From Thermococcus pacificus (GTDB lineage Archaea; Methanobacteriota_B; Thermococci; Thermococcales; Thermococcaceae), in assembly GCF_002214485.1 (NCBI RefSeq), contig NZ_CP015102.1:1364001-1428000 (forward strand): 64,000 nucleotides of DNA, in the 5' to 3' direction. Below are positions 31,452 through 48,910 of the stretch, piece by piece. The translations under genes were made by a program, and so were the position numbers. The stretch's first letter is position 1. Every line of letters begins with the position of its first letter. The notes beneath the pieces are model-generated. The model had not been told where the DNA came from, did no database searches, and worked only from the letters and a program-made list of their open reading frames with translations.

Positions 31452-31529
31452 GCCCCGGTGGTGTAGCCCGGTCAAACATGCGGGCCTTTCGAGCCCGCGC
31501 CCCGGGTTCAAATCCCGGCCGGGGCACCA
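31452..31529 (+). tRNA. tRNA-Glu (UUC), CCA end encoded
   Basis: A full cloverleaf is visible: acceptor GCCCCGG/CCGGGGC, a D-arm with GTAGCCCGGTC, an anticodon stem CGGGC/GCCCG holding the loop CTTTCGA (anticodon TTC), a T-arm with GGTTCAAATCC, discriminator A and an encoded CCA. The gene lies at the left edge of an accessory region. tRNA-Glu is a known integration site for Thermococcus virus-like elements. Confidence 0.96.
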
Positions 31530-31537
31530 AAACAGCC

Positions 31538-31677
31538 CTTTGCTTCGCAAAGCGCTGGCGGAAAGATTGCGTGCTTTTCTGAAAATGCAAATTTTCAGGT
31601 GGTTTACTCGTCAATGGTCATTTCTCAGTGTTTGCCTTCCTCAAGGCGTCCTTCGGACGCCGGAATGAAGCGCAAAC
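31538..31677. repeat. Three perfect hairpins downstream of tRNA-Glu
   Basis: Within 140 bases after the tRNA lie CTTTGC-ttc-GCAAAG (31538-31552), CTGAAAAT-gcaa-ATTTTCAG (31579-31598) and GGCGTCC-ttc-GGACGCC (31645-31661). The last can be extended outward by TTCC/GGAA and TTTGC/GCGCAAA pairs to a large imperfect stem (31631-31677). No gene is convincing from 31530 to about 31950. The hairpins may be terminators, recombination or replication signals left by an integrated element; no integrase was found. Confidence 0.5.
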
Positions 31678-31904
31678 TAGTTTTAGGAGCTTCTATTGAA
31701 TTTAAACCCCTACCTAACGGGAATTTGAAACTGCACGCTGATACTGTCAACCATCCACGAGAAAGAAAATCTCCTAGTTAAGCCGGTTTAATGAACACTC
31801 TCCAAAAGCCGCAAACTTCCAGTAAACCCACACAATACTTCTTTTTTCTGTATCCGATTGGGATACATTCCGTCTATTACTTCAACACAAGTGAAGTTTG
31901 GCGT

Positions 31905-31950
31905 AAAGTTATTATATGTTCACGTAAGTAGACCTTAAAGGTCGGTGGTG
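31905..31950 (+). promoter_or_regulatory. Promoter with palindrome before the SAP-nuclease gene
   Basis: A TATA element, GTTATTATATG (about 31907-31917), is followed by the perfect dyad GACCTT-a-AAGGTC (31931-31943), then a GGTGGTG ribosome binding site before ATG 31954. The dyad sits at the expected transcription start, where a repressor could act. Confidence 0.45.
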
Positions 31951-31953
31951 CTG

Positions 31954-32406
31954 ATGGGAATCGGGAATTTTCTCAAAAAGGTTGGGGATGCCACCAAGAA
32001 AGCGATGGATCGTGCAGCTAAAGAGGCCAAGTACCGAGCAAAGGCTCTGGATATTAAGAGGGAAATCGCCGAGGCTGAACGAAAGTTCCGAGAAGAAGCT
32101 GCAAGAAAGGAGTTTGAGGCCAAGAGGGAAATCCTCTCTCAGCTCAAGATGAGGCAGCTTGAGGCTGTCTGTGCCGCCAAGGGCATTCCTACTTACCGAA
32201 CACAAATTGTTAATGGCGAGGAGCGCCGCTACAAGATACGGAACAAGGATGAACTTATTGATGTTGTTGCGAGCCATTTAACTCTTGAGGAAGTTGCCGA
32301 AGTCGCCAAGAGGTATAAGGTCAAGTCCCGCCACATAATTCAGCACTTCCAGAAATGGCTTGAGGAAGCTAACGAGGCATTAGGGGCATTCAAGGAGCAA
32401 ACTTAA
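31954..32406 (+). CDS. SAP-like domain protein, N-terminal part of a frameshifted gene
   Basis: This 150-residue open frame starts MGIGNFLKKVGDATKKAMDR, with a long Lys/Glu/Arg-rich helical region (about 10-60). A SAP-like DNA-binding segment follows (LKMRQLEAVCAAKGIPTYR...NKDELIDVVA, about 64-108), then a further helical region. It ends at TAA 32404-32406. In the +1 frame from the same place translation runs without a stop to 32968 and joins the nuclease-like frame, so this is probably the front of one gene of about 338 codons broken by a one-base change between about 32375 and 32404. Confidence 0.6.
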   Translation: MGIGNFLKKVGDATKKAMDRAAKEAKYRAKALDIKREIAEAERKFREEAARKEFEAKREILSQLKMRQLEAVCAAKGIPTYRTQIVNGEERRYKIRNKDELIDVVASHLTLEEVAEVAKRYKVKSRHIIQHFQKWLEEANEALGAFKEQT

Positions 32407-32551
32407 CGAATATAAGGCTCACCTTTTCGGGGAGGAGTCTAACGAGGTTGCTACCATTGAGCTTGAAGAGGAGAGCGCTGAATCTCTTGGTGGGGAAGCC
32501 CTTGAGGAATACATCCTTGGGGAAGGGGATTACCAGCCGGAACCGGATATT

Positions 32552-32968
32552 GTGGACATTCTCTTTGACTTTGAGCCTGAAACAGTAAGGGATGAAGAGG
32601 ATCTTGAAAAACAGCTCTATCAATACCTTAAAGCACGCCTCGGAAGTAGGGTCACGCGACAGTATCCTGCTGGAGATCAGAAGATTGACATCGCCGTTGA
32701 CGGCAGAGTTGGAATTGAGATCAAGATTGCGGAGAGTAGGAGTAAGCTCCAGCGTTTGGCCGGTCAGGTTTTGGATTATGTGGAGTACTTCGACGAGGTT
32801 ATTGCTGTGATTCTTGACGTTGGGGCCAACGTGGACATTGACAATTATATCAAAAAGCTCCGTCAGCTTGGGGCCGAGGTTGTGGTACTGGAGGGAGACA
32901 TTAAACGAAAAGGCCGTTCGAGAGAGATTATCATTAAAGACGCGCGGAGAAAGATAATAATACGCTGA
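32552..32968 (+). CDS. PD-(D/E)XK nuclease-like domain, C-terminal part of a frameshifted gene
   Basis: The frame is open from about 32388 but has no ATG; the first possible start is a GTG at 32552 with no ribosome binding site. This supports a split from the SAP-domain frame upstream. The domain reads GDQKIDIAVDGRVGIEIKI, giving the Asp and Glu-x-Lys spacing of a PD-(D/E)XK nuclease, followed by a helix-strand repeat (ILDVGANVDIDNYIKKLRQL) and a basic end. A SAP domain joined to a restriction-like nuclease suits a mobile-element or DNA-processing protein. Confidence 0.55.
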   Translation: MDILFDFEPETVRDEEDLEKQLYQYLKARLGSRVTRQYPAGDQKIDIAVDGRVGIEIKIAESRSKLQRLAGQVLDYVEYFDEVIAVILDVGANVDIDNYIKKLRQLGAEVVVLEGDIKRKGRSREIIIKDARRKIIIR

Positions 32969-33052
32969 GTCTTTTTCTTTGTTTGTTGTAGCCGTTTAAC
33001 TCGGAGAGTAATTTTTCCGTCCGTAATTTACTTAAGGGCTGTCTTCATTGTA

Positions 33053-33733
33053 ATGTTTGGTGTTGTAATGCTAAGGCCGTACGAGGTTGAATTAGCAACT
33101 CTTGGAAATAAGGTCCGTGTTGAGTTCTTGAGAGGGGATTATGTCGGTCTAATTGAATCAGTTAACTGTGGGGAGGGTGGAGAAGAGCAGACGAATTTTG
33201 CACGGGAGGAGGCATGGGATTCTCATAGAAGGTGTCTTTCAACGGTTTTTGTTGTTCTGAGCGAGAACCGTCTTGTTTCATATTTTACCCTTTCGCCGTT
33301 TATTGTTAGTCTGAAAATCCGTGAAAATATGCCCGAACCCAAAAAAGAGCTTGTCATGGAGCTACGGGGTCGGCTTGAAAGGCTGTTGGGCATGGATATC
33401 AAGTATTCGTCGGTACCTACGATTCTTCTTGGTCAATTCTGCCTTCAGAATGAGTATAGAGGTAGGGGAATTGGTGGGGAGTTGTTGGCTAAAGTCATTA
33501 AGCCTTATGCAGTTCTTTATGCTGCTCGGATTGGGGGAGTTGGTTTGTCTCTCCATGCTAAAAAGCAAGTAGCAAAGCGGTTCTATTTGAATCCCAAAAA
33601 GAATCCTCTCGCGAGTGGATTTCAGGCTGTTTCTAAGGGTAGTACTTATGAGTTGTTCTATCCTTTTGCCGCCGAGGCCATTGCAGTTAGAAGAGCATTA
33701 ATTGAGCGATTTAAGAGTAAAGAATTCAGATGA
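33053..33733 (+). CDS. GNAT-type N-acetyltransferase in accessory region
   Basis: This 226-residue protein has the acetyl-CoA motif FCLQNEYRGRGIGGELLAKV near residue 132 and a C-terminal part like plasmid- and toxin-associated GNATs (KKQVAKRFYLNPKKNPL). The mRNA is probably leaderless: AATTTACTTAAGG at about 33024-33036 and ATG 33053; a second in-frame ATG lies at 33068. Its base composition is more A+T-rich than that of core genes. Its 3' end overlaps by eight bases a small antisense-facing gene, which could be a partner. Confidence 0.68.
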   Translation: MFGVVMLRPYEVELATLGNKVRVEFLRGDYVGLIESVNCGEGGEEQTNFAREEAWDSHRRCLSTVFVVLSENRLVSYFTLSPFIVSLKIRENMPEPKKELVMELRGRLERLLGMDIKYSSVPTILLGQFCLQNEYRGRGIGGELLAKVIKPYAVLYAARIGGVGLSLHAKKQVAKRFYLNPKKNPLASGFQAVSKGSTYELFYPFAAEAIAVRRALIERFKSKEFR

Positions 33734-33875
33734 GGCCTGCAATGGTGAGAGCTCTCCTGACAGTGTCATCTATCTCTTTAGGGTCCCGCTCTTTGGCTTT
33801 TTCAAATGCTCTCACGAAGTTCTGGAGCTCTTCTGGAGTCTCCAGTATGAGTTCGTAACCATCAAATTTGGCCAT
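33726..33875 (-). CDS. 49-residue small protein, possible partner of the GNAT protein
   Basis: On the minus strand a frame of 49 codons starts MAKFDGYELILETPEELQNF and ends RRALTIAGLI. It has a GGTGAG ribosome binding site five bases before the ATG and a strong TATA (TTTATATAATT, minus strand, about 33906-33916). It is short, acidic and helix-forming, similar in size to antitoxins or small regulators. It ends inside the last codons of the convergent GNAT gene. The family is not recognised. Confidence 0.55.
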   Translation of the reverse strand: MAKFDGYELILETPEELQNFVRAFEKAKERDPKEIDDTVRRALTIAGLI

Positions 33876-33903
33876 TTTTCTCACCGTTCCTTTCTTCCGT
33901 ACG

Positions 33904-33960
33904 GAATTATATAAATGTTATGCATCTTGCATAGCCAGTATTCACAGTGCATACTAATGC
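33904..33960 (-). promoter_or_regulatory. Promoter with repeated TGCATA boxes
   Basis: Next to the TATA of the 49-residue gene (minus strand) lie TATGC-atctt-GCATA (about 33918-33932) and a further TGCATA at about 33948-33953, followed by ATGCG. The repeats adjoin the BRE/TATA and could be an operator. The stretch from here to 34174 shows no other convincing gene. Confidence 0.4.
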
Positions 33961-34174
33961 GTAATGATTACGAAGATACTAGTCTGTTGTAGGTGGATTC
34001 TGGAGTGGACGCAGTGGTGAATTTCTCGGGGTAATGTGTTCAGGATCTTTCGGCTTTTTGAGTAATATTTCGAATTCTGGCTTTTCTCAGCCTGCAACAG
34101 GCGAAATGTTAAAATACTTCGTGGTAATATGTCCTAGTTGCTGATTCAAAAACGAGCGGAGGAGGGCCCGGAGA

Positions 34175-35011
34175 ATGGGTGAGAATATTCCTAGTCTGAA
34201 GAAGGTGGCTGAGGCTAAAAATTCGCCTGAGGAATTGTACATTCCTAAAGGGGTCAGGTTCAAGAAAAAGACCTTTCTCAGGGCATCTGGGTATGTTTTC
34301 CTCATTATGCTGGTCCTTGGCATGGTTCTCATAGGTTATGGTGCTTCGCTCGATCCAACGGTAAAATACGTGGTTGCTGACAGATGGGACAAGTCTTGGG
34401 AGCTCAAGCCAGGGTACTACAATCATCACACGTGGAAACTTGAGAGTCCTCATGATGCCTTCTTAGAGATTAACGCGACCGTTAGTGGTGGGAATGGAGA
34501 TCTGGATGTTTACATTGACACGCCATCTGGTAGAGTCAATTATGGACGGTTGACAAACCCGGTTCACGTGACCGTGAATTTGAGCAGGTATGGCGTCGGA
34601 GAATACACGATTTATTTGGACAATTCTTTTAGCGTGGTGACTTCCAAGTATATCACTCTCCATGAGGCAGTATACAGGAAAGTTCAGGACACTACTGACA
34701 AGGACGCGTACCAAGCCTTGGGGGGAATTTTGATGTTCGTTGGTTTCTTTGGAGTGCTATATACCCTCAGCAAGCGTGTTATCCTAGAGGTAGATGGCGA
34801 CGAGATAGTCATGGAGTTTAAGAGCGGCCTCCTCAAGAATTACGTGGAGCTCACGGTGAATGGGTTCAAGCTCGATCAGAAGATCAAAGGCCCCGTGAAG
34901 TTTAGGGTTGGGCAAAATGAGGATAAGGTGCTTGAGATTGAGCCAATAGTATTTCTGAACCTTGCATGGAAGATAACGCTTGACGGACAGTTCATCGGCG
35001 GCGTGCCGTGA
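34175..35011 (+). CDS. Two-helix membrane protein with external beta domain, unknown function
   Basis: In this 278-residue protein a basic N-terminus leads to helix 1 (GYVFLIMLVLGMVLIGYG, about 39-56). An outside domain of about 120 residues with beta pattern follows (DAFLEINATVSGGNGDLDVY; NATV and NLSR are possible glycosylation sites). Helix 2 (about 183-200, GGILMFVGFFGVLYTL) precedes a C-terminal internal domain (about 80 residues). I do not recognise the family. The next gene begins at the stop, and both are A+T-richer accessory genes. Confidence 0.62.
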   Translation: MGENIPSLKKVAEAKNSPEELYIPKGVRFKKKTFLRASGYVFLIMLVLGMVLIGYGASLDPTVKYVVADRWDKSWELKPGYYNHHTWKLESPHDAFLEINATVSGGNGDLDVYIDTPSGRVNYGRLTNPVHVTVNLSRYGVGEYTIYLDNSFSVVTSKYITLHEAVYRKVQDTTDKDAYQALGGILMFVGFFGVLYTLSKRVILEVDGDEIVMEFKSGLLKNYVELTVNGFKLDQKIKGPVKFRVGQNEDKVLEIEPIVFLNLAWKITLDGQFIGGVP

Positions 35012-35058
35012 GGGAGTTAAAATGGAAGATTCAAAACACGCGCGAGGGGGCAAAATGC

Positions 35059-35781
35059 ATGAACTCTTTTAAATGGCAGATTATAGTTTTATTTGCGATT
35101 TTCATTCTGTGGACAGGTGCAGGATATCTCTTTAGAGATACTCTTTTGGTAGAGAGCGCCCTTGTTGTTGCTACAATTTTCATGGCTGGTTTCGTGGCCT
35201 ACCAAGCGTGGGCTACCATTGTAATGGCTCAGCAAGCCCAAGAACAGGTAAAACAAATGATCCGACAAGCCCAACTTACACAGCGATCCATGGAAGAGAT
35301 GCAGAAGCAAGTAGCAATTATGGGCGAAACTCTTATGGAAATGAAAAAAGACCGCATGAGGATAGAGGAACTTAAAGATTCGCTTGTAAGCTACATTCAG
35401 TATTTGATTAAGGCATTGAATGCATCTTCTCCGAATTATGTCCTTGTTGAGAAACCGTATCCTTATTTCTATAAGAGATATCGGACGAGAATCGGTACCA
35501 GCTTATCTCCATCTGAAGAAGGGTGGGTATGGAGAATCTCAAAATTTATTGAGAGATTACTTGAAAAGAAGGGCTTCTCTTTGGACGAGTTAGAGGAATA
35601 TAATGGCATGATCGCCAAATTCAAAAAACCTGGCACTCCTAGGGAAGAGAAACATAGGCTTGCCGCCGAATTAGAGAAGAAATCTAAAGAAATGAGACAA
35701 ATAGCTGAGGACATTTTCCATGAAATTAAAGAGATGGGCGAGTATGCCTTTGAGAGAGAAATCATGGCAAATCGCTGCTGA
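35059..35781 (+). CDS. Membrane-anchored coiled-coil protein, unknown function
   Basis: This protein of about 240 residues has two N-terminal hydrophobic helices (about 5-22 and 31-52) and a long coiled coil (QAQEQVKQMIRQAQL... to about residue 110). A charged helical C-terminus follows. A GTG at 35008 overlapping the previous stop would add 17 residues; ATG 35059 follows a GGGGG stretch and is preferred. It is coupled with the upstream membrane protein, so the pair may form one envelope complex. No family recognised. Confidence 0.6.
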   Translation: MNSFKWQIIVLFAIFILWTGAGYLFRDTLLVESALVVATIFMAGFVAYQAWATIVMAQQAQEQVKQMIRQAQLTQRSMEEMQKQVAIMGETLMEMKKDRMRIEELKDSLVSYIQYLIKALNASSPNYVLVEKPYPYFYKRYRTRIGTSLSPSEEGWVWRISKFIERLLEKKGFSLDELEEYNGMIAKFKKPGTPREEKHRLAAELEKKSKEMRQIAEDIFHEIKEMGEYAFEREIMANRC

Positions 35782-36104
35782 TGCAGAGCTTCTTCACTCT
35801 TTCTCCTTTATCACCCCCGAAAACATGCCCCCGTTCTCGGCGATGATGACCTTGAAGCTCGATGACCGTTCTTAATGCTCTCCATGACTTCAGGTAGATC
35901 CCCCCATTACTGGGCGGCAAAATGTTAACCTACTTTCAGATTGGTATTGTGGTATGGCAGCTTTCTAAGAAGATATGCAGATTATCTCATCTTGAGTCAT
36001 GGTTAGAGACAGTATGACCTACGTAGTTCCTTAAAGGTTGAGTGCTACAAGTAGTCCTTTTCCCCTCCCAAAACCCTTAACTACCATAAACTCTGACGTT
36101 ATCT
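35782..36104. other. Intergenic stretch with a gene fragment
   Basis: Minus-strand codons 35794-35862 read SSFKVIIAENGGMFSGVIKEKE and then stop, a plausible C-terminus with no intact upstream frame, so it is probably the remnant of a lost gene. The rest (35880-36100) shows no gene. A TATA-like region before 36120 may serve the nuclease-like lipoprotein. Confidence 0.35.
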
Positions 36105-36119
36105 TTGGAAGTGTTATCT

Positions 36120-36620
36120 ATGACCCCGCGCCCCAGATATGTCGTCTTAGTGCTCGCAATGGTCCTCTTCTCAGTCGTTGCCTCAGCCTGCATCGGCGGT
36201 TCTCCTTCAACAACACCTACGGAGAATTATTCCACTGAGACAAGCGTGTCAAAGGTTTCCACATTCTCAACGTCCACCCATAACGTCCCAGCAGACGCGA
36301 TTAAAGTCTACGTGGTTAAGGTCATAGACGGGGACACAATTGACGTTGCTTTCCCAAACGGGACTGTGGACAGGGTCCGTTTCCTCGGTGTGGATACACC
36401 GGAGACTTCTGCTTCCAGGAACAAGGCCAATGAGTACGACCACATAACTGATTTAAAATGTCTCGCCAGCTGGGGCGTTGCGGCCAAGTTCTTTGTAAGG
36501 GATTACATCCAAGACAAGGTCGTCTATATTGAATTCGATCCCATCGCGGGTAGAAGGGGTTATTACGGTCGTCTTCTGGCGTACATTTACCTCAAGAACG
36601 GCACCGATTTCACTGGGTGA
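36120..36620 (+). CDS. Thermonuclease-like lipoprotein, N-terminal part of a split gene
   Basis: 166 residues. A signal peptide ends in a lipobox (VVASACIGG), followed by a Ser/Thr linker and a staphylococcal-nuclease (SNase) domain with VIDGDTIDVAF, RVRFLGVDTPET and GRRGYYGRLLAYIYL, which hold the expected catalytic Asp, Arg and Glu-type positions. The frame stops at TGA 36618-36620 within the SNase fold. The remainder (VKKGYARVY onward) continues in another frame from GTG 36617. The overlap GTGA resembles coupled genes, but the domain is cut in the middle, so a frameshift with a small deletion is more likely. Confidence 0.65.
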   Translation: MTPRPRYVVLVLAMVLFSVVASACIGGSPSTTPTENYSTETSVSKVSTFSTSTHNVPADAIKVYVVKVIDGDTIDVAFPNGTVDRVRFLGVDTPETSASRNKANEYDHITDLKCLASWGVAAKFFVRDYIQDKVVYIEFDPIAGRRGYYGRLLAYIYLKNGTDFTG

Positions 36621-37117
36621 AAAAGGGGTACGCTAGGGTGTATACCGAGGGAGAGTTCAAAAAGGAGCAGAGGTACGTCTCTTACCAGAAGAGCGCAGAA
36701 TCCAAGAAACTCGGCTTATGGGGCTGTGAGTTCGGAAAATATGCGGATGTGAATGGTGTAGCCACTCACGTGGCATCGACGGGGGATGTCGTCATTGTGA
36801 AGGTTCATTACGATGCCGGCGGACCTAACGTTAGGGACACGGAAGTTCTGAATGATGAGTACGTAGTGCTAAAGAACAAAGGCTCAACTCCCGTGAACCT
36901 TAAAGGATGGTTCATTGAGGATGAGGCAGACCACCGTTATTATTTTCCCTCGATAACCCTCCAGCCGGGGAAAGAGATCGTCCTCCACACGGGAAAAGGA
37001 ACCGATACGGCCCACGACCTTTACTGGGGCTCCGGAAGAGCAATATGGAACAACGACCATGACACCGCATACCTCTACAATTCCGATGGCAAATTGGTGG
37101 ACAAGTTCAGCTGGTGA
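36617..37117 (+). CDS. End of SNase domain plus lamin-tail-like domain, C-terminal part of a split gene
   Basis: 166 residues. The first 40 (VKKGYARVYTEGEFKKEQRY... KLGLWG) are the usual end of an SNase domain. The rest is a lamin-tail/LTD-like beta domain (DEYVVLKNKGSTPVNLKGWF near residue 83, DTAYLYNSDGKLVDKFSW at the end), found in secreted nucleases. Read with the preceding frame it would make a surface-anchored nuclease of about 330 residues. Translational restart at the GTG is possible, but the first part lacks the last strand and helix of the fold. Confidence 0.65.
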   Translation: MKKGYARVYTEGEFKKEQRYVSYQKSAESKKLGLWGCEFGKYADVNGVATHVASTGDVVIVKVHYDAGGPNVRDTEVLNDEYVVLKNKGSTPVNLKGWFIEDEADHRYYFPSITLQPGKEIVLHTGKGTDTAHDLYWGSGRAIWNNDHDTAYLYNSDGKLVDKFSW

Positions 37118-42379: not shown

Positions 42380-43036
42380 ATGAAGAGGATAAAGTTCTCC
42401 ATCCCGATCAGCCTTGATTATTTCAACGCCTTCAGGAGCTTCCTGGAGGCCGTGGAGTGGGGTTATGGAGATACTTACTTCCTTCTCGGGAGCGACGTGG
42501 TCAAGCTGGTGGAGGTCAAGTTTAAGGAGGGCGTGAAGCCCGAGGAGGTTCTCGGCGAACTGCTCAAAATTCCCTACGTGAAGGACGCGAAGCTCATCCC
42601 GAAAAACGATCACTACCTGCTCTACGTGAGAGCGAACCTTCTCCATGCGTCCCTTCCGGAGAACGTCTCCCGGTTCTTTGAGGTGCAGAAAAGGGGCATG
42701 GTGGTCTTTGAGAAGGGCACCTTCAGCACGGAGGGGTTTTACCTCTACGTCGTCTGCGAGGAAGGCCTCCTCGGGGACGTAATCTCGGCGGTTAAGGAAG
42801 TTTACGGGGCCAGAGTGGTCAGCGTTGAGGATTACACTCCGGGGGAAAATCCACTCCTGAAGCTGACCGGGAGGCAGTTCGAGGTTCTCCTTCTGGCCTA
42901 CAAGAGCGGCTACTTCGACAATCCGAGGCGCGTGACCCTCAGGGAGCTCTCCCAGATGCTCGGCCTGAGCCCTTCCACCGTGAAGGAGCACCTGAGGAAG
43001 GGCTTGAAGAGGGTGCTGGAGGAGGTTATAGAGTAG
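42380..43036 (+). CDS. Bat-type (HTH_10) transcriptional regulator
   Basis: This 218-residue protein ends in a bacterio-opsin-activator HTH (LTGRQFEVLLLAYKSGYF... LRELSQMLGLSPSTVKEHL, about 160-212). The first 155 residues are an alpha/beta sensor-like part (YGDTYFLLGSDVVKLVEVK). Such regulators control small metabolic regulons in archaea; the ligand is unknown. The start codon follows a TATA-like element closely, so the mRNA is leaderless or nearly so. It is convergent with the large ATPase gene. Confidence 0.83.
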   Translation: MKRIKFSIPISLDYFNAFRSFLEAVEWGYGDTYFLLGSDVVKLVEVKFKEGVKPEEVLGELLKIPYVKDAKLIPKNDHYLLYVRANLLHASLPENVSRFFEVQKRGMVVFEKGTFSTEGFYLYVVCEEGLLGDVISAVKEVYGARVVSVEDYTPGENPLLKLTGRQFEVLLLAYKSGYFDNPRRVTLRELSQMLGLSPSTVKEHLRKGLKRVLEEVIE

Positions 43037-43052
43037 CAATTCTTCTTGAAAT

Positions 43053-46000
43053 TTATGACGAGTCTATCTCTACAGTTGCATTTTTCACTTTAATTTTTCC
43101 TTCATATATTAACTTTATTGGGTTTGAGATCTTGACTACCTTGGGATTGCTTCCTCCTGCCCCGTATACCCTATAGATACAGTATTTATCACCGTTTTCT
43201 TTCATGAAATTCCATTCATTCCCGGACAAGTGAAATATTGCCTTAGCCATTGAAGGTGTAGTCTTAACCTCAACAAAAAAAGCTTCTTCTTTGTCCCCTT
43301 CTCTTTTATGTATAATCCTAATGTCATAAGGCTTGCCACTTTCACCTTTTTTGTTTTCCCATATCACCTCTACAATCACATTACCTCTCCTTTCCAATCT
43401 AAAGCCCCGTTCAGTATCCACTAAAGAGGCATCAGGGTATCTATCCACTAACTCTTCTTTGATGCATCTTAAGGCGTATTTTTCTCCCCACCGTCCAATC
43501 TCCTCTCTTGTTTTTTCGCTCAGGTTTTCTGGAGGTGAATTGGTGGACCTAAAAGATAATAAAGTGTGAATTTCCTCCATGGAAGAATTTTTGCCATGTC
43601 CTTCTTGTATGTGGCTTTGCTTTTGAAGCTTGTATTCTTCAACCCTAACCGGAACTTCCTCTGAAGAAAATTCTGGAGTCCATTCTTTCTCCCCCGTTTC
43701 GTCTGGGATACCTTCATTACTTCCAATAATGTTCTCTTCTTCCTTTGGCTTTGTTGACAATTTGGGGGTAGTTTTTGTTAATATTGAAAGATGGATTCCT
43801 TCACGTCTTTTTTCTTTTGAAAGGGTTTTTTCTGCGCTCTTTTCAAGCTCTTTCTCTTCTTCTATCTTTTCAGCTTTGAGCACATTTCTTAAAAACTCAG
43901 CCTTACCCTCGGGTAGTTTCCCTATTTTTTGTATCTCCATGATTTTCTCTATTTTTGATGGAGGGATATTTATAATGAGCAACAGGAATGAGTCAAGACC
44001 CTTAACTTCTCCGAACACTTTGGAAAATTCTACTGCAAGATCATTGAGGCTAGCATTCTCTCTTTCGACATACAAATTGCCGCCATAGTAAATACATTTT
44101 CTCTCGGCAATTTTATCTACTGTGTTCCTTTCGCTAATACTTATTGAATATTTAACCTTTAGAGTCTCTGAGATATAAACTTTAATTTCTCCGATCTTTT
44201 CGAATATTCCCTCTTTTTTGAGCTTTTCATATGTTGCATTTTCTCTCCAATAAAGATACCGTAAAACATAGGGTATGAGAGTCCGAATGCGATTTGTGAG
44301 TTCTTGATCTTTTAAATATTCACTCTCTTCAAGCAACGGTTCAACTTTAGTGCTTTTAGATATATAACGAAGATTGCATGCTTCGATGAAAAATTTGATC
44401 TTATCTACGGGGTATTCCTCGGGCAACCATAGAAAACTGATGTTTTCTTCGTCTTTAAACAGTTCATAAAGTTCGTTATCATCGTTTATGAAGATGTCAT
44501 TATCGTTATACCAAAACTCGTTCCTGTCGGTTAAGAATATTGGTTCCTCGATGAAATCTTTCCACCAATCTTCCTGAGATATAAGGGTTTCAACTCTATC
44601 AGGATTTAAGCTACGGTTCAGTTCTTCGTATATCTTCAAAACAATTTTCTTATCTTCCTTAGAAATCTCCTCTTTTTTGGAGATATCAACCAATACGTTG
44701 GCATAATCTTTTGGGGTGGGCTTCTCACTTATGCCAAGTTTTTCCACAAAGAATTTTTTGAGCTTGGGATAGTGTTTTTCCAAATATATCCTGTTTTTAC
44801 CGAAAATATTGCCCACATCCTTCCAGATAACTTCCTCAGTGCTGTAATATTTTTTCCCTGAGTTGGGAACAAAAATAAGAGAATTTTCAGCAAATTCCTT
44901 CTTAATGTTAGTTGCGTCTTCCCCAAAATGCTTATCCAAGAACTCATACAGCCGTTCAAATTTTTCCTTATCTGTACTCTCCTGCCTCACAAGAGCTTTT
45001 AAATAATTTAGTACACCCCCTACATTAGCCTGAGTGTTGATACCCAAGGCTTCAATGAACTCATTATTTTTAATTTCCACTGCCAGATATGGGACAGTAT
45101 CCCCCAAGAGTTCTCGAATTTCTGGTTTATCTAGGAATACCTCTGGGGGACTTGCAAGGACATTTTGTGTTGTGGGGAGCTTAATATTTTCTTTTAACTC
45201 TCTGATAAACGATGAAGGAAATGACCTATAATACTCGAGGTAATAGAACCACCAATAACCCATATTCCGATATTTTGAGTATTTTTCGCTCCAATATTTG
45301 TCCAGTAGGGTCAGTAAAATCTTCATTCTCCGTTCATTCCCATTTTCTAGTATGTATTCGAGTTCTGGAGAGAGCTTCCAGTCTCTAATCCTGTGCTCTC
45401 TAGTTGAATATTTCATTTCTTCCTTGGGTATTCCAAATCTGCTCTGAAAATCACAATAAGTGTGAGAATAGCTTAACCCACAGCTCCCCTCATAATATTC
45501 GACCCTAGGTACTTCATGAACCCCAAGCTTTAGAAAGAACTCTTTCCATTCCCTAATCCTCTTCTCTTTTTCTTCTTTCAAGTCCCTAATTCTCTTTTCT
45601 ATTTTTTTCATTTCTTTTTTGTGCTTTTTCTTCCATGTTTTGCTTCTATCCTTTAGTTTATTCTCCAATTCAGAGAGTTCATTATTGATGTGCCTTATAT
45701 CTTGCTCGAGATAGCATGGATGCACAAAACTTACGTCGATTCCCTCAAATAACTCCTCCAAGTCATTCTCGTTCCCGTAGATCTTAGGCAAATATGTATT
45801 TTCTGGGTTGTCATACCATTCTTCTCCTTCATCTCTGTTTATGCGTATAAGAAGTGACTTTTTAAGGCGCTTTAATGGATCTTCTTTAGTTTCCCACGAT
45901 TTTTTATTGGCATTTAATCTTCTGTCACTTTCTCTCTCGTATTTGTGCATATTATCTTTGATATATCTAATATATCCAATCAATGTCCTTGAATCTTTTT

Positions 46001-47780
46001 GTTTCCAGTCTTCACCTTCATAAGCTGGTAAGATATAATTCTCGATAATTTCGTATGGTGTTGCATGTCTGATTCCCAACTCTTTAAGGAACTCAAGAAT
46101 CTTATCTCCCTCTTCTTTTCCGTATTTTGAAATGATATCGATAACATCTCTTCTAATTATTCTGAGTTCACTTTCAAATCCATAGATTCTCTCTTTTTCT
46201 ATTGGGAAGAAAACTGTGCCTTTGTTTATGGAAGTTAGTTCCCCATTCTCCAATCTGACAATATCCAGATCCCTTAGATCCTCTAACTGTTCCTCAGAAA
46301 GTTTTCTATTGCTGAGATATCTATACAAACTTGCAAACCATTCGTCACCCTGTTTTTTAAGCCATTCAGTGTTCCCAAGTATTTTAATCAGGTCATCAAT
46401 TGAAAAATCTCTAATCCCTAATTTGTGGAGTACCTGTTTTTTGGCTTTTATTTTACTGGATAAATATTCCTTTCCGAGGAATTGATACAAATATTCGTTG
46501 GGTACTATCTTCTTTATCTCTTCATTCCCTACTATGACTTCCGAAGGCTTTTTCCAAATATTGGCGTCTGTTAGGATGCACTCTTCCTCTTTAAGCCTTC
46601 TATATATCCCCTCCACTACTGGCAAAAAGAATTCATCTTTAACTTCATCAAGGGGAAGATACTCATAAAAGCAATATTTTAGTTTATCATCTTTCTTGAA
46701 TTCTTCAACAGCATCCATAAAAACATCCACGATGAAATCTCTAAGCCAGGCATTCCAACGGCTATCTCTGATTATATCCTCTCGAGTTATGGGGAGGATA
46801 AAATCGGCTTGGAGAATAAATTTAAATCCATACCTCCTAACCGGTAGGAATGCAAAAACATGTTGTTCTTTTGAAGCGTCTGGAGAGCCATCCTCGTTTA
46901 ATGGGAACGCTAAGATTATTTCTGTTTCCTTTACACCTCTCCGTTTATCTTCGAAAATTTCAGAAGGCACTGTTAGAGTTTTTTTAACAACAAACCACCT
47001 CAGTGTAGAAGTTTTGTTTAATTTGTCGGCTTTTTCTTCTATTCTGATTTCAACCACGTTGTCTTTTTCAAAACGTTCGAATCTTTTGTATATCCCCCGA
47101 GTTCTGTCTTCAATTTCAATTATCTTTAATTTCCGAAGGAACAGTAGCAAATTAGGGTGGACATCATTTAAATATCTAGAGGCCTTTGTCTTTGATTCAT
47201 CATTTAGTACCAGTATAATGTTTGTTTGAGTGGGATCAACAAAATCTGGAACATGCTCAATCCACCTTGGGATTAACATTGTTAGAGGGTCATTTTTATT
47301 GTATTCAAACCTGAACTGAAAACCATTTGAGAATATCCAAACTTCGTTTGCCACCATAAAAACGGACTTAAATCCTATCCCTTTTTCACCGATGTATCCC
47401 AGAGATTTATTTGTTTTGGTAGAACCTCCAATTTTACATAGAGCCCAGACGTTCTCTTCTTTAAATCCAGTCTCATTATTTTGGACTATTAAACAATCTG
47501 AGGTTAGAATAAATTTGATTTTTGGTATCACGGCCTCTTTATATTCGTTGTCTTCTGCATTTTGGATTAATTCAAAAACAAAGTGGGGCTTTTTAGTGTG
47601 GATATCCTCAGCAAGTTTTGCAGCATCTCTCTTAAACTCGTTATTGCGTAAAATGTAGTTTTTTACATTTTCAGGTAATTCACTGGAATCAATACCAATT
47701 CCAAATAGTTCCTCCTGAATTTTTCTGATTATATCCTTTGGTTTCAGCGTGAGATTCGCCTGGGAGTGAGTGTTTCCCAC
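43053..47780 (-). CDS. NO VEIN-like giant ATPase: HSP90/GHKL domain plus DUF3883
   Basis: 1575 residues. The N-terminus is a sacsin-like GHKL ATPase: N-box FELIQNAEDNEY (about 69-80), a G1 region NNETGF (101-106) in place of the usual DNGxGM, and G2 GYIGEKGIGFKS (128-139). A very long middle follows, with a Lys/Glu coiled coil at about 697-740 (KKHKKEMKKIEKRIRDLKEE). A low-complexity linker (about 1330-1425) leads to a C-terminal DUF3883 module: EEIGRWGEKYALRCI near 1426, KPYDIRI and FFVEVKTT near 1502, which fits a PD-(D/E)XK-like nuclease. The gene is strikingly A+T-rich against its neighbours and stands alone. A GTG start with GGAGG is used. Function unknown; defence or quality control is inferred. 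Confidence 0.85.
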   Translation of the reverse strand: MGNTHSQANLTLKPKDIIRKIQEELFGIGIDSSELPENVKNYILRNNEFKRDAAKLAEDIHTKKPHFVFELIQNAEDNEYKEAVIPKIKFILTSDCLIVQNNETGFKEENVWALCKIGGSTKTNKSLGYIGEKGIGFKSVFMVANEVWIFSNGFQFRFEYNKNDPLTMLIPRWIEHVPDFVDPTQTNIILVLNDESKTKASRYLNDVHPNLLLFLRKLKIIEIEDRTRGIYKRFERFEKDNVVEIRIEEKADKLNKTSTLRWFVVKKTLTVPSEIFEDKRRGVKETEIILAFPLNEDGSPDASKEQHVFAFLPVRRYGFKFILQADFILPITREDIIRDSRWNAWLRDFIVDVFMDAVEEFKKDDKLKYCFYEYLPLDEVKDEFFLPVVEGIYRRLKEEECILTDANIWKKPSEVIVGNEEIKKIVPNEYLYQFLGKEYLSSKIKAKKQVLHKLGIRDFSIDDLIKILGNTEWLKKQGDEWFASLYRYLSNRKLSEEQLEDLRDLDIVRLENGELTSINKGTVFFPIEKERIYGFESELRIIRRDVIDIISKYGKEEGDKILEFLKELGIRHATPYEIIENYILPAYEGEDWKQKDSRTLIGYIRYIKDNMHKYERESDRRLNANKKSWETKEDPLKRLKKSLLIRINRDEGEEWYDNPENTYLPKIYGNENDLEELFEGIDVSFVHPCYLEQDIRHINNELSELENKLKDRSKTWKKKHKKEMKKIEKRIRDLKEEKEKRIREWKEFFLKLGVHEVPRVEYYEGSCGLSYSHTYCDFQSRFGIPKEEMKYSTREHRIRDWKLSPELEYILENGNERRMKILLTLLDKYWSEKYSKYRNMGYWWFYYLEYYRSFPSSFIRELKENIKLPTTQNVLASPPEVFLDKPEIRELLGDTVPYLAVEIKNNEFIEALGINTQANVGGVLNYLKALVRQESTDKEKFERLYEFLDKHFGEDATNIKKEFAENSLIFVPNSGKKYYSTEEVIWKDVGNIFGKNRIYLEKHYPKLKKFFVEKLGISEKPTPKDYANVLVDISKKEEISKEDKKIVLKIYEELNRSLNPDRVETLISQEDWWKDFIEEPIFLTDRNEFWYNDNDIFINDDNELYELFKDEENISFLWLPEEYPVDKIKFFIEACNLRYISKSTKVEPLLEESEYLKDQELTNRIRTLIPYVLRYLYWRENATYEKLKKEGIFEKIGEIKVYISETLKVKYSISISERNTVDKIAERKCIYYGGNLYVERENASLNDLAVEFSKVFGEVKGLDSFLLLIINIPPSKIEKIMEIQKIGKLPEGKAEFLRNVLKAEKIEEEKELEKSAEKTLSKEKRREGIHLSILTKTTPKLSTKPKEEENIIGSNEGIPDETGEKEWTPEFSSEEVPVRVEEYKLQKQSHIQEGHGKNSSMEEIHTLLSFRSTNSPPENLSEKTREEIGRWGEKYALRCIKEELVDRYPDASLVDTERGFRLERRGNVIVEVIWENKKGESGKPYDIRIIHKREGDKEEAFFVEVKTTPSMAKAIFHLSGNEWNFMKENGDKYCIYRVYGAGGSNPKVVKISNPIKLIYEGKIKVKNATVEIDSS

Positions 47781-48058
47781 AACCTCCTTCCTCCGTAACT
47801 TTTGTGTTCGGACAATTATAGGGCTTTAAGAGGATTTAAAGGTTTCTTAACTACGTTACACACTGTTTAGGATAAACCAATTTGGGCAGTATTATAGATT
47901 TTTAGTTGGCTCTCAAGCACAATGGGTTGTTTTAATAGAGAGCTTTATCTATCACAATGACGCCTTTCTTAAGGTGTGGAAGTACTTGATAACTTATCCC
48001 GCACATGTGCGTGGCTAACTATAACTACACCAAGCGCGTATTCTAAACCGGTGAAAGC
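47781..48058. other. Intergenic region between the giant ATPase gene and the ABC operon
   Basis: On the minus strand CCCTATAATTG (about 47815-47825) is a plausible TATA for the giant gene. The perfect palindrome CGCACATGTGCG (about 48001-48012) lies on the ABC side. Nothing in the 280 bases looks like a gene. The base composition falls from A+T-rich to normal across it, so one edge of the insert probably lies here. Confidence 0.4.
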
Positions 48059-48910
48059 ATGCCGGTCATAGAGGTTGAGAACGTTAGGAAGTACTACGGT
48101 GATGTGAGGGGCGTTGATGGGCTCAGCTTCTCGGTGGAGGAGGGGGAAATCTACGGCTTCCTCGGGCCGAACGGCGCCGGAAAGACCACAACGGTCAAAA
48201 TCCTCGTGAAGATCATCAAGGACTACGAGGGCACTGTGAAGGTATTTGGGAAGGATCTCCGGGAGTGGGGAAAGGACTACTACAACAAAATCGGCGTGTC
48301 CTTCGAGTTTCCTGCCGTCTATTCGAGGCTAACCGCCCTGGAAAACCTTCAATTCTTCGCGAGCTTCTACAAAAGGCACCTCGACCCCCTCGAAGTCCTG
48401 AAGATGGTTGGGCTCGAGAAAGAGGCGGACCAGCTCGTATCCGGCTTCTCCAAGGGCATGAAGAAGAAGCTCGACCTCGCGAGGGCTTTGCTGCCAGACC
48501 CAGAGGTGCTCTTCCTCGATGAGCCGCTTGAAGGCCTCGACCCCGCGAGTGCAAGGAAGATAAAAGACCTTCTCCTCGAGATGAGGGAAAACGGCAAGAC
48601 GGTCTTCCTGACAACCCACAACATGTACGTCGCGGACGAGCTGTGCGACAGAGTAGCTTTCATCGTTGAGGGAAAGATAGCCCTCGTTGACAGCCCGGGA
48701 GAGCTCAAGGTGAAGATGGGGAAGAGGCTCGTCAGGGTGGAGTACGTGGATGACAATGATGTTAAGATGGCCGAGTTCCCGCTCGAAAACCTCGGAAGAA
48801 ACGAGGAGTTTCTGAATATCATCAAAAACCACGAGGTCAGGAGGATAAACACGGAGGAGCCCACACTGGAGGAGATATTCCTGAAGGTGACGGGGAGGAG
48901 GCTCGTATGA
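48059..48910 (+). CDS. ABC transporter ATP-binding protein
   Basis: This 283-residue ATPase shows Walker A GPNGAGKTTT, the signature GFSKGMKKKL, Walker B VLFLDEPLEG and the H-loop TTHNMYVADE. A C-terminal domain typical of ABC-2 exporters ends EEIFLKVTGRRLV. It overlaps the first permease by ATGA. It is first in a three-gene export operon; the substrate (drug, lipid or peptide) cannot be told. Confidence 0.92.
   Translation: MPVIEVENVRKYYGDVRGVDGLSFSVEEGEIYGFLGPNGAGKTTTVKILVKIIKDYEGTVKVFGKDLREWGKDYYNKIGVSFEFPAVYSRLTALENLQFFASFYKRHLDPLEVLKMVGLEKEADQLVSGFSKGMKKKLDLARALLPDPEVLFLDEPLEGLDPASARKIKDLLLEMRENGKTVFLTTHNMYVADELCDRVAFIVEGKIALVDSPGELKVKMGKRLVRVEYVDDNDVKMAEFPLENLGRNEEFLNIIKNHEVRRINTEEPTLEEIFLKVTGRRLV

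Follow-up and report, generated by a model that had tools for sequence, protein, structure and literature searches.

A lone Tiamat-type (TmtA) gene for an Hsp90-like ATPase with a predicted nuclease tail, recently inserted into a cargo spot of Thermococcus pacificus

The Tiamat defence system was reportedly described by Millman et al. in 2022, and TmtA is presumably the name that PADLOC gives to its protein, a correspondence that we take from the PADLOC naming; a literature search on the name 'TmtA' returned no relevant defence paper. For archaea, Tiamat is cited from 20 of 382 genomes (PMC13321033), reviews and surveys list its mechanism as unknown (PMC12926258, PMC10482375), and metagenomic contigs of plant origin also score as Tiamat (PMC12409356). 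VcSduA, which joins a GHKL ATPase to a PD-(D/E)xK nuclease, has been studied experimentally as an anti-phage protein, and variants disrupting either activity have been made (PMC12137116). DUF3883, the NOV_C domain, was described by Anantharaman et al. as a novel restriction-endonuclease domain (PMC3710099).

Here we analysed a stretch of 64,000 nucleotides from Thermococcus pacificus (the window), which carries one large gene, tmtA (Table 1), whose product is matched by seven PADLOC TmtA profiles. The best of these, PDLC03972, reaches E=7.1e-292, and several extend over nearly the full length, with PDLC03966 spanning residues 14-1562 of 1575. The gene is a member of an already described single-gene defence family and not a new kind of system, and it shows the single-gene feature of Tiamat, being the one gene of its insert and encoding an Hsp90-like ATPase fold. 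An earlier note on this DNA had proposed a single-gene defence system that combines an ATPase with a nuclease; that hypothesis is supported, the antiviral role being a prediction. With the HSP90 chaperone equivalog NF010683 the protein scores 26 bits against a cut-off of 455 and thus falls outside the HtpG/Hsp90 family proper, and a sequence search of the PDB with the window protein gave nothing convincing.

Table 1. Coordinates of the tmtA locus and of two related copies (window positions unless a contig is named)
Feature	Position	Strand	Details and basis
tmtA (Tiamat-type) gene	43053..47780	-	1575 aa from a GTG start, without internal stops; 75% full-length relative in G080
GHKL/sacsin ATPase core	47325..47612	-	aa 57-152; N-box E70..N74, G1 NNETGF (101-106), G2 GEKGIGFKS (131-139); SACS, P_loop_sacsin, invariant columns
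Hsp90-like N-terminal and middle domain	45921..47753	-	~aa 10-620; AlphaFold2 (model of aa 1-700) pLDDT 81; Foldseek
NOV_C / DUF3883 predicted PD-(D/E)xK nuclease domain	43128..43385	-	aa 1466-1551; Pfam E=1.2e-18
ExK catalytic motif (predicted), E1504-V-K1506	43263..43271	-	D1486 at 43323-43325; all three residues invariant across 12 NOV_C tails
Imported upstream region	47781..47998	-	TATA-like TTTAAAT 47834-47840; Shine-Dalgarno GGAGGAAGGAGG 47783-47794; sequence read
Whole inserted segment	43038..47998	.	4,961 bp, absent from sister genome G020
Left border: HTH_10 (Bat-type) regulator	42380..43036	+	insert starts right after stop codon
Palindrome GCACATGTGC	48001..48010	.	just outside insert; kept in most relatives, ~58 bp before ABC gene
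Right border: ABC transporter ATPase gene	48059..48910	+	
G046 tmtA copy	L024:6894-11462		ATPase N-terminal domain (~275 aa) diverged, sharp boundary
Frameshifted, internally deleted tmtA relative	L003:251-1505		Archaeoglobaceae MAG contig; 91% protein identity in part

The N-terminus is a sacsin/HSP90-like ATPase, as had been claimed. It matches the NCBIfam sacsin ATP-binding domain P_loop_sacsin (E=1.1e-19) and Pfam SACS (E=2.9e-8), with HATPase_c_3 as a weak match. Conserved or invariant residues make up the ATP site (E70, N74, G131, G134, G136 and K138), and the invariant alignment columns of the core comprise E70, D77, G131, G134, G136 and K138. For the modelled N-terminal part, the best 50 Foldseek matches are all Hsp90, TRAP1, GRP94 or HtpG structures (best E=4.9e-11); global TM-scores are low, at about 0.3, so the domains are placed differently from those of Hsp90 structures. 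The G1 box had been singled out in the earlier note as unusual, but it is typical of the family: nearly all sampled members have N or H where DxGxG has its D. We rejected its novelty, since NNExGF is the rule among the closest relatives.

At the other end of the protein, beyond a long body, NOV_C follows SACS in the order of plant NO VEIN, as proposed. The NOV_C core was modelled at a pLDDT of about 75-95 by 10-residue block, and the predicted helix-strand order is that expected of PD-(D/E)xK nucleases, with the D..ExK residues in the expected secondary-structure order. A structure search with the C-terminal model yielded weak matches, none of them significant, the best being the restriction enzyme HinP1I (E=0.044), followed by others that include RecU, a Holliday-junction resolvase (Hjc-type), Cas4 and Dna2. 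The Pfam match and the invariance of D, E and K uphold the proposed DUF3883 domain with an ExK pattern. As to the folds expected of the two ends, the Hsp90-like N-terminus is recovered, and the C-terminal model is compatible with a nuclease, though not decisively so and not as proof of one.

Among relatives this tail is exchangeable. Of 35 tails scanned, 19 carry NOV_C and three HNH_2. G965, which is among the closest relatives and shares 60% identity with the window protein across residues 281-700, has an HNH_2 tail in place of NOV_C, and in a tree built from the first 650 residues the two distinct HNH-tailed proteins, from G965 and Halorubrum, have independent origins. The C-terminal module, either PD-(D/E)xK or HNH, has thus been swapped independently at least twice. 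Another 14 homologues end in a zinc-knuckle tail (C..C...LCLCP.C/H) that lacks the HNH histidine. An SNF2 helicase gene adjoins 12 of these 14 versus none of the 21 nuclease-tailed homologues, for which it was looked for in the available upstream sequence. The gap to the helicase gene is 2-106 nt in 11 of the 12 cases; the exception, G107, has a fragmented helicase gene at a larger apparent gap. One of the two remaining zinc-tail genes is the second ATPase gene of a helicase operon, and for the other, in G572, no helicase gene lies within 1.5 kb. Both SNF2 helicases that were scanned contain a HEPN_Swt1 domain. The split between tail and helicase is suggestive, given that it was noticed post hoc and comprises two independent contrasts on well-supported branches (four on the best tree), which all point the same way. 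The zinc-tailed ATPase and its SNF2 helicase likely form a separate two-gene system. Zinc-knuckle sacsin-type ATPase genes directly follow an SNF2 helicase gene on L089, L093, L042, L046, L111, L117-L119, L123, L124 and L108; on L124 (Poribacteria, G117), two such genes lie in tandem behind one helicase gene.

The composition of the window gene had raised the suspicion of a foreign insert, far more A+T-rich than the adjoining genes and without a partner gene, and this was borne out. GC content is 0.364 and GC3 0.363 for tmtA, against about 0.55 GC in the surrounding region and a GC3 of 0.73-0.80 in neighbouring genes. In the sister genome G020, whose flanking proteins are 96-97% identical, the site is empty and the flanks meet at a single base, which makes the segment a clean insertion and not one conserved locus of normal composition. 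The insert consists of tmtA alone plus about 218 bp upstream, whose strong Shine-Dalgarno sequence and TATA-like box were brought in with the cargo; this upstream region is partly conserved in G080, as far as 47852. The same spot (43037-48058 of the window, compared with L027-L039, L021, L022 and L026) holds only about 50-60 bp in five sampled Thermococcus genomes, a VapBC-type toxin-antitoxin pair (PIN plus ribbon-helix-helix) in three, a methyltransferase gene in five and a methyltransferase remnant in one. Since it is empty or filled with VapBC, a methyltransferase or tmtA depending on the species, the spot between the HTH_10 and ABC genes receives different small cargoes. The insertion of tmtA into it is recent. 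The insert borders carry no transposase, tRNA, or flanking or terminal repeats, and a transposon or integrase origin was rejected on this ground. Elsewhere in the window, a second A+T-richer stretch (31452-37060, 43-50% GC) lies after a tRNA-Glu and before the gene at 37059; its mostly uncharacterised genes include a GNAT-like gene and one (32552-32968) whose small product weakly matches REase_MTES_1575. At 36105-37117, a staphylococcal-nuclease and lamin-tail gene occupies two overlapping frames that part inside the SNase domain, which is likely a frameshift.

Within the Thermococcales, tmtA occurs in 3 of 94 genomes, of which the window genome and G046 share a genus while G080 belongs to another; in each of these hosts the GC content of the gene is about 36%. 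The G080 copy lies in a different neighbourhood, and its product is 75% identical to that of the window across the entire length; the dN/dS of 0.17 between the two indicates purifying selection, and together these values exclude a chance ORF. The dN/dS also weighs against a decayed mobile-element remnant without function. Foreign composition would fit such a remnant, as would the frameshifted and internally deleted relative on L003, but the window frame is open over its full length and its upstream region retains promoter-like and ribosome-binding sequences; we consider this explanation very improbable. The L003 relative itself reflects either a recent transfer between hyperthermophiles or mis-binning. 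The protein of G046 is mostly 67-84% identical to that of the window past about residue 280 and 29-53% before it. The break is abrupt, at residues 275-285, DNA similarity ends at the same point, and the G080 protein keeps about 83% identity in this part. The whole ATPase N-terminal domain of the G046 copy thus appears to have been replaced; a search for its donor found none. Given that copies closely related elsewhere differ by exchange of this domain, it may be what sets target specificity. A reading of the G046 copy as broken ("1 TAA") was rejected, as its ORF is intact at 1522 aa. More widely, family matches were obtained in 5 of 396 genomes of an archaeal sample, 23 of 394 in the archaeal phylum of G116 and 5 of 297 in one bacterial phylum. 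Close virus-borne copies were absent from the viral contigs searched with the single protein, and phage records gave one weak match. A profile query retrieved 12 IMG/VR viral contigs (L094-L105) with distant relatives of the ATPase half, at 21-32% identity.

A patchy distribution within defence islands had been held to favour a defensive role. The patchiness is evident from the Thermococcales, and the islands are found around relatives: the Sulfuricurvum relative lies directly upstream of qatABCD, the G869 relative adjoins JetC of Wadjet, the Halorubrum relative is near a DNA cytosine methyltransferase, and three archaeal relatives (G827, G954 and G924) have a HerA-type helicase, a D12 DNA methyltransferase and an EVE protein alongside (the G827 neighbourhood was scanned, those of G954 and G924 were read from near-identical sequence). 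Next to the window copy there is no defence gene. An Hsp90-like fold and a sacsin domain, with a chaperone role reported for sacsin itself (PMC3710099), might instead mark a chaperone-like sacsin/Hsp90-like stress protein whose NOV_C is structural and not antiviral. We regard this as improbable, because D, E and K are conserved in the NOV_C tails, HNH substitutes for the tail, presence is patchy and relatives have defence neighbours. A possible, if somewhat doubtful, alternative is a type IV-like restriction enzyme, in which the large middle region would itself recognise modified or foreign DNA and ATP-driven clamp closure would position the nuclease, so that only incoming DNA is cut and abortive infection does not occur. 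The exchange between PD-(D/E)xK and HNH tails, the resemblance of the helicase-partner variants to DrmD/BrxH-type helicases, and the EVE and D12 methyltransferase genes next to three relatives would suit such an enzyme; however, Pfam recognises no modified-base reader domain in the protein, and the window copy lacks an adjoining methyltransferase.

We consider it probable that the product of the window gene is a Tiamat-type (TmtA) antiviral protein, that the gene arrived by horizontal transfer as one-gene cargo, and that in this protein an infection-sensing Hsp90-like clamp licenses a tethered nuclease. The TmtA profiles, the Hsp90-like fold, the invariant D/E/K, the exchangeable tail, the defence neighbours of relatives, the patchiness, the empty site and the VapBC-carrying hotspot all argue for this antiviral role; the literature searched contained no plaque or nuclease assay for any archaeal member. 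We propose the following hypothetical mechanism, in which (i) the ATPase would dimerise as an ATP-driven clamp, like Hsp90, MutL and MORC proteins; (ii) an infection cue, which may be viral DNA or protein, would bind the N-terminal and middle region and alter the clamp; and (iii) the altered clamp would free the tethered nuclease onto DNA, either that of the virus or that of the host (abortive infection). Taken more broadly, the Tiamat/sacsin-ATPase family could be a modular immune platform, acting either as a lone clamp with its own nuclease (PD-(D/E)xK or HNH) or in a zinc-knuckle form through an adjacent SNF2 helicase, with the ATPase domain also swapped and plant NO VEIN as a domesticated lone form; we put this forward tentatively, as a reading that falls a little short of probable. 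In the literature searched we met no account of the exchangeable tail, of the split between nuclease tails and helicase partners, or of a Thermococcus copy with an apparently replaced ATPase domain. Tiamat becomes directly testable as an Hsp90-like clamp that gates a nuclease, owing to the tail-helicase split and to the use of two unrelated nuclease folds in one and the same tail position. Besides this family-wide modularity, the locus is of interest because its insertion site is clean and its protein comes from a thermophilic archaeon; this compact member, with an empty site in a sister species, is well suited to structural and biochemical work.

Among known systems, prokaryotic MORC and paraMORC proteins are likewise GHKL ATPases, whose operons also encode helicases, HNH nucleases and methylases (PMC2292703), but they are separate GHKL families, the window protein matching SACS and not MORC. 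Sacsin shares the SACS domain and an Hsp90-like module; however, its repeated modules, DnaJ and HEPN domains are absent from the window protein, which has a single SACS match by Pfam. Closer in layout is the Shedu-type VcSduA, likewise one polypeptide with a GHKL ATPase, a middle region and a C-terminal PD-(D/E)xK nuclease and likewise anti-phage (PMC12137116). Its nuclease is DUF4263, for which the window protein has no Pfam match at E<=1, and the two are therefore not of the same family. Plant NO VEIN (NOV), likened here by architecture, also has an N-terminal sacsin/Hsp90-type ATPase and a C-terminal NOV_C, although it is a eukaryotic developmental protein; the window protein is its archaeal counterpart. 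We infer that the plant contigs scored as Tiamat are NOV genes, and their scoring agrees with the comparison to NO VEIN made in the earlier note. Tiamat itself is by far the best profile match and is likewise a lone large ATPase gene, occurring at a frequency of about 5% among archaeal genomes (20 of 382, PMC13321033; 23 of 394 in one phylum here); the window member differs in its host, a representative of the Thermococcales living at high temperature.
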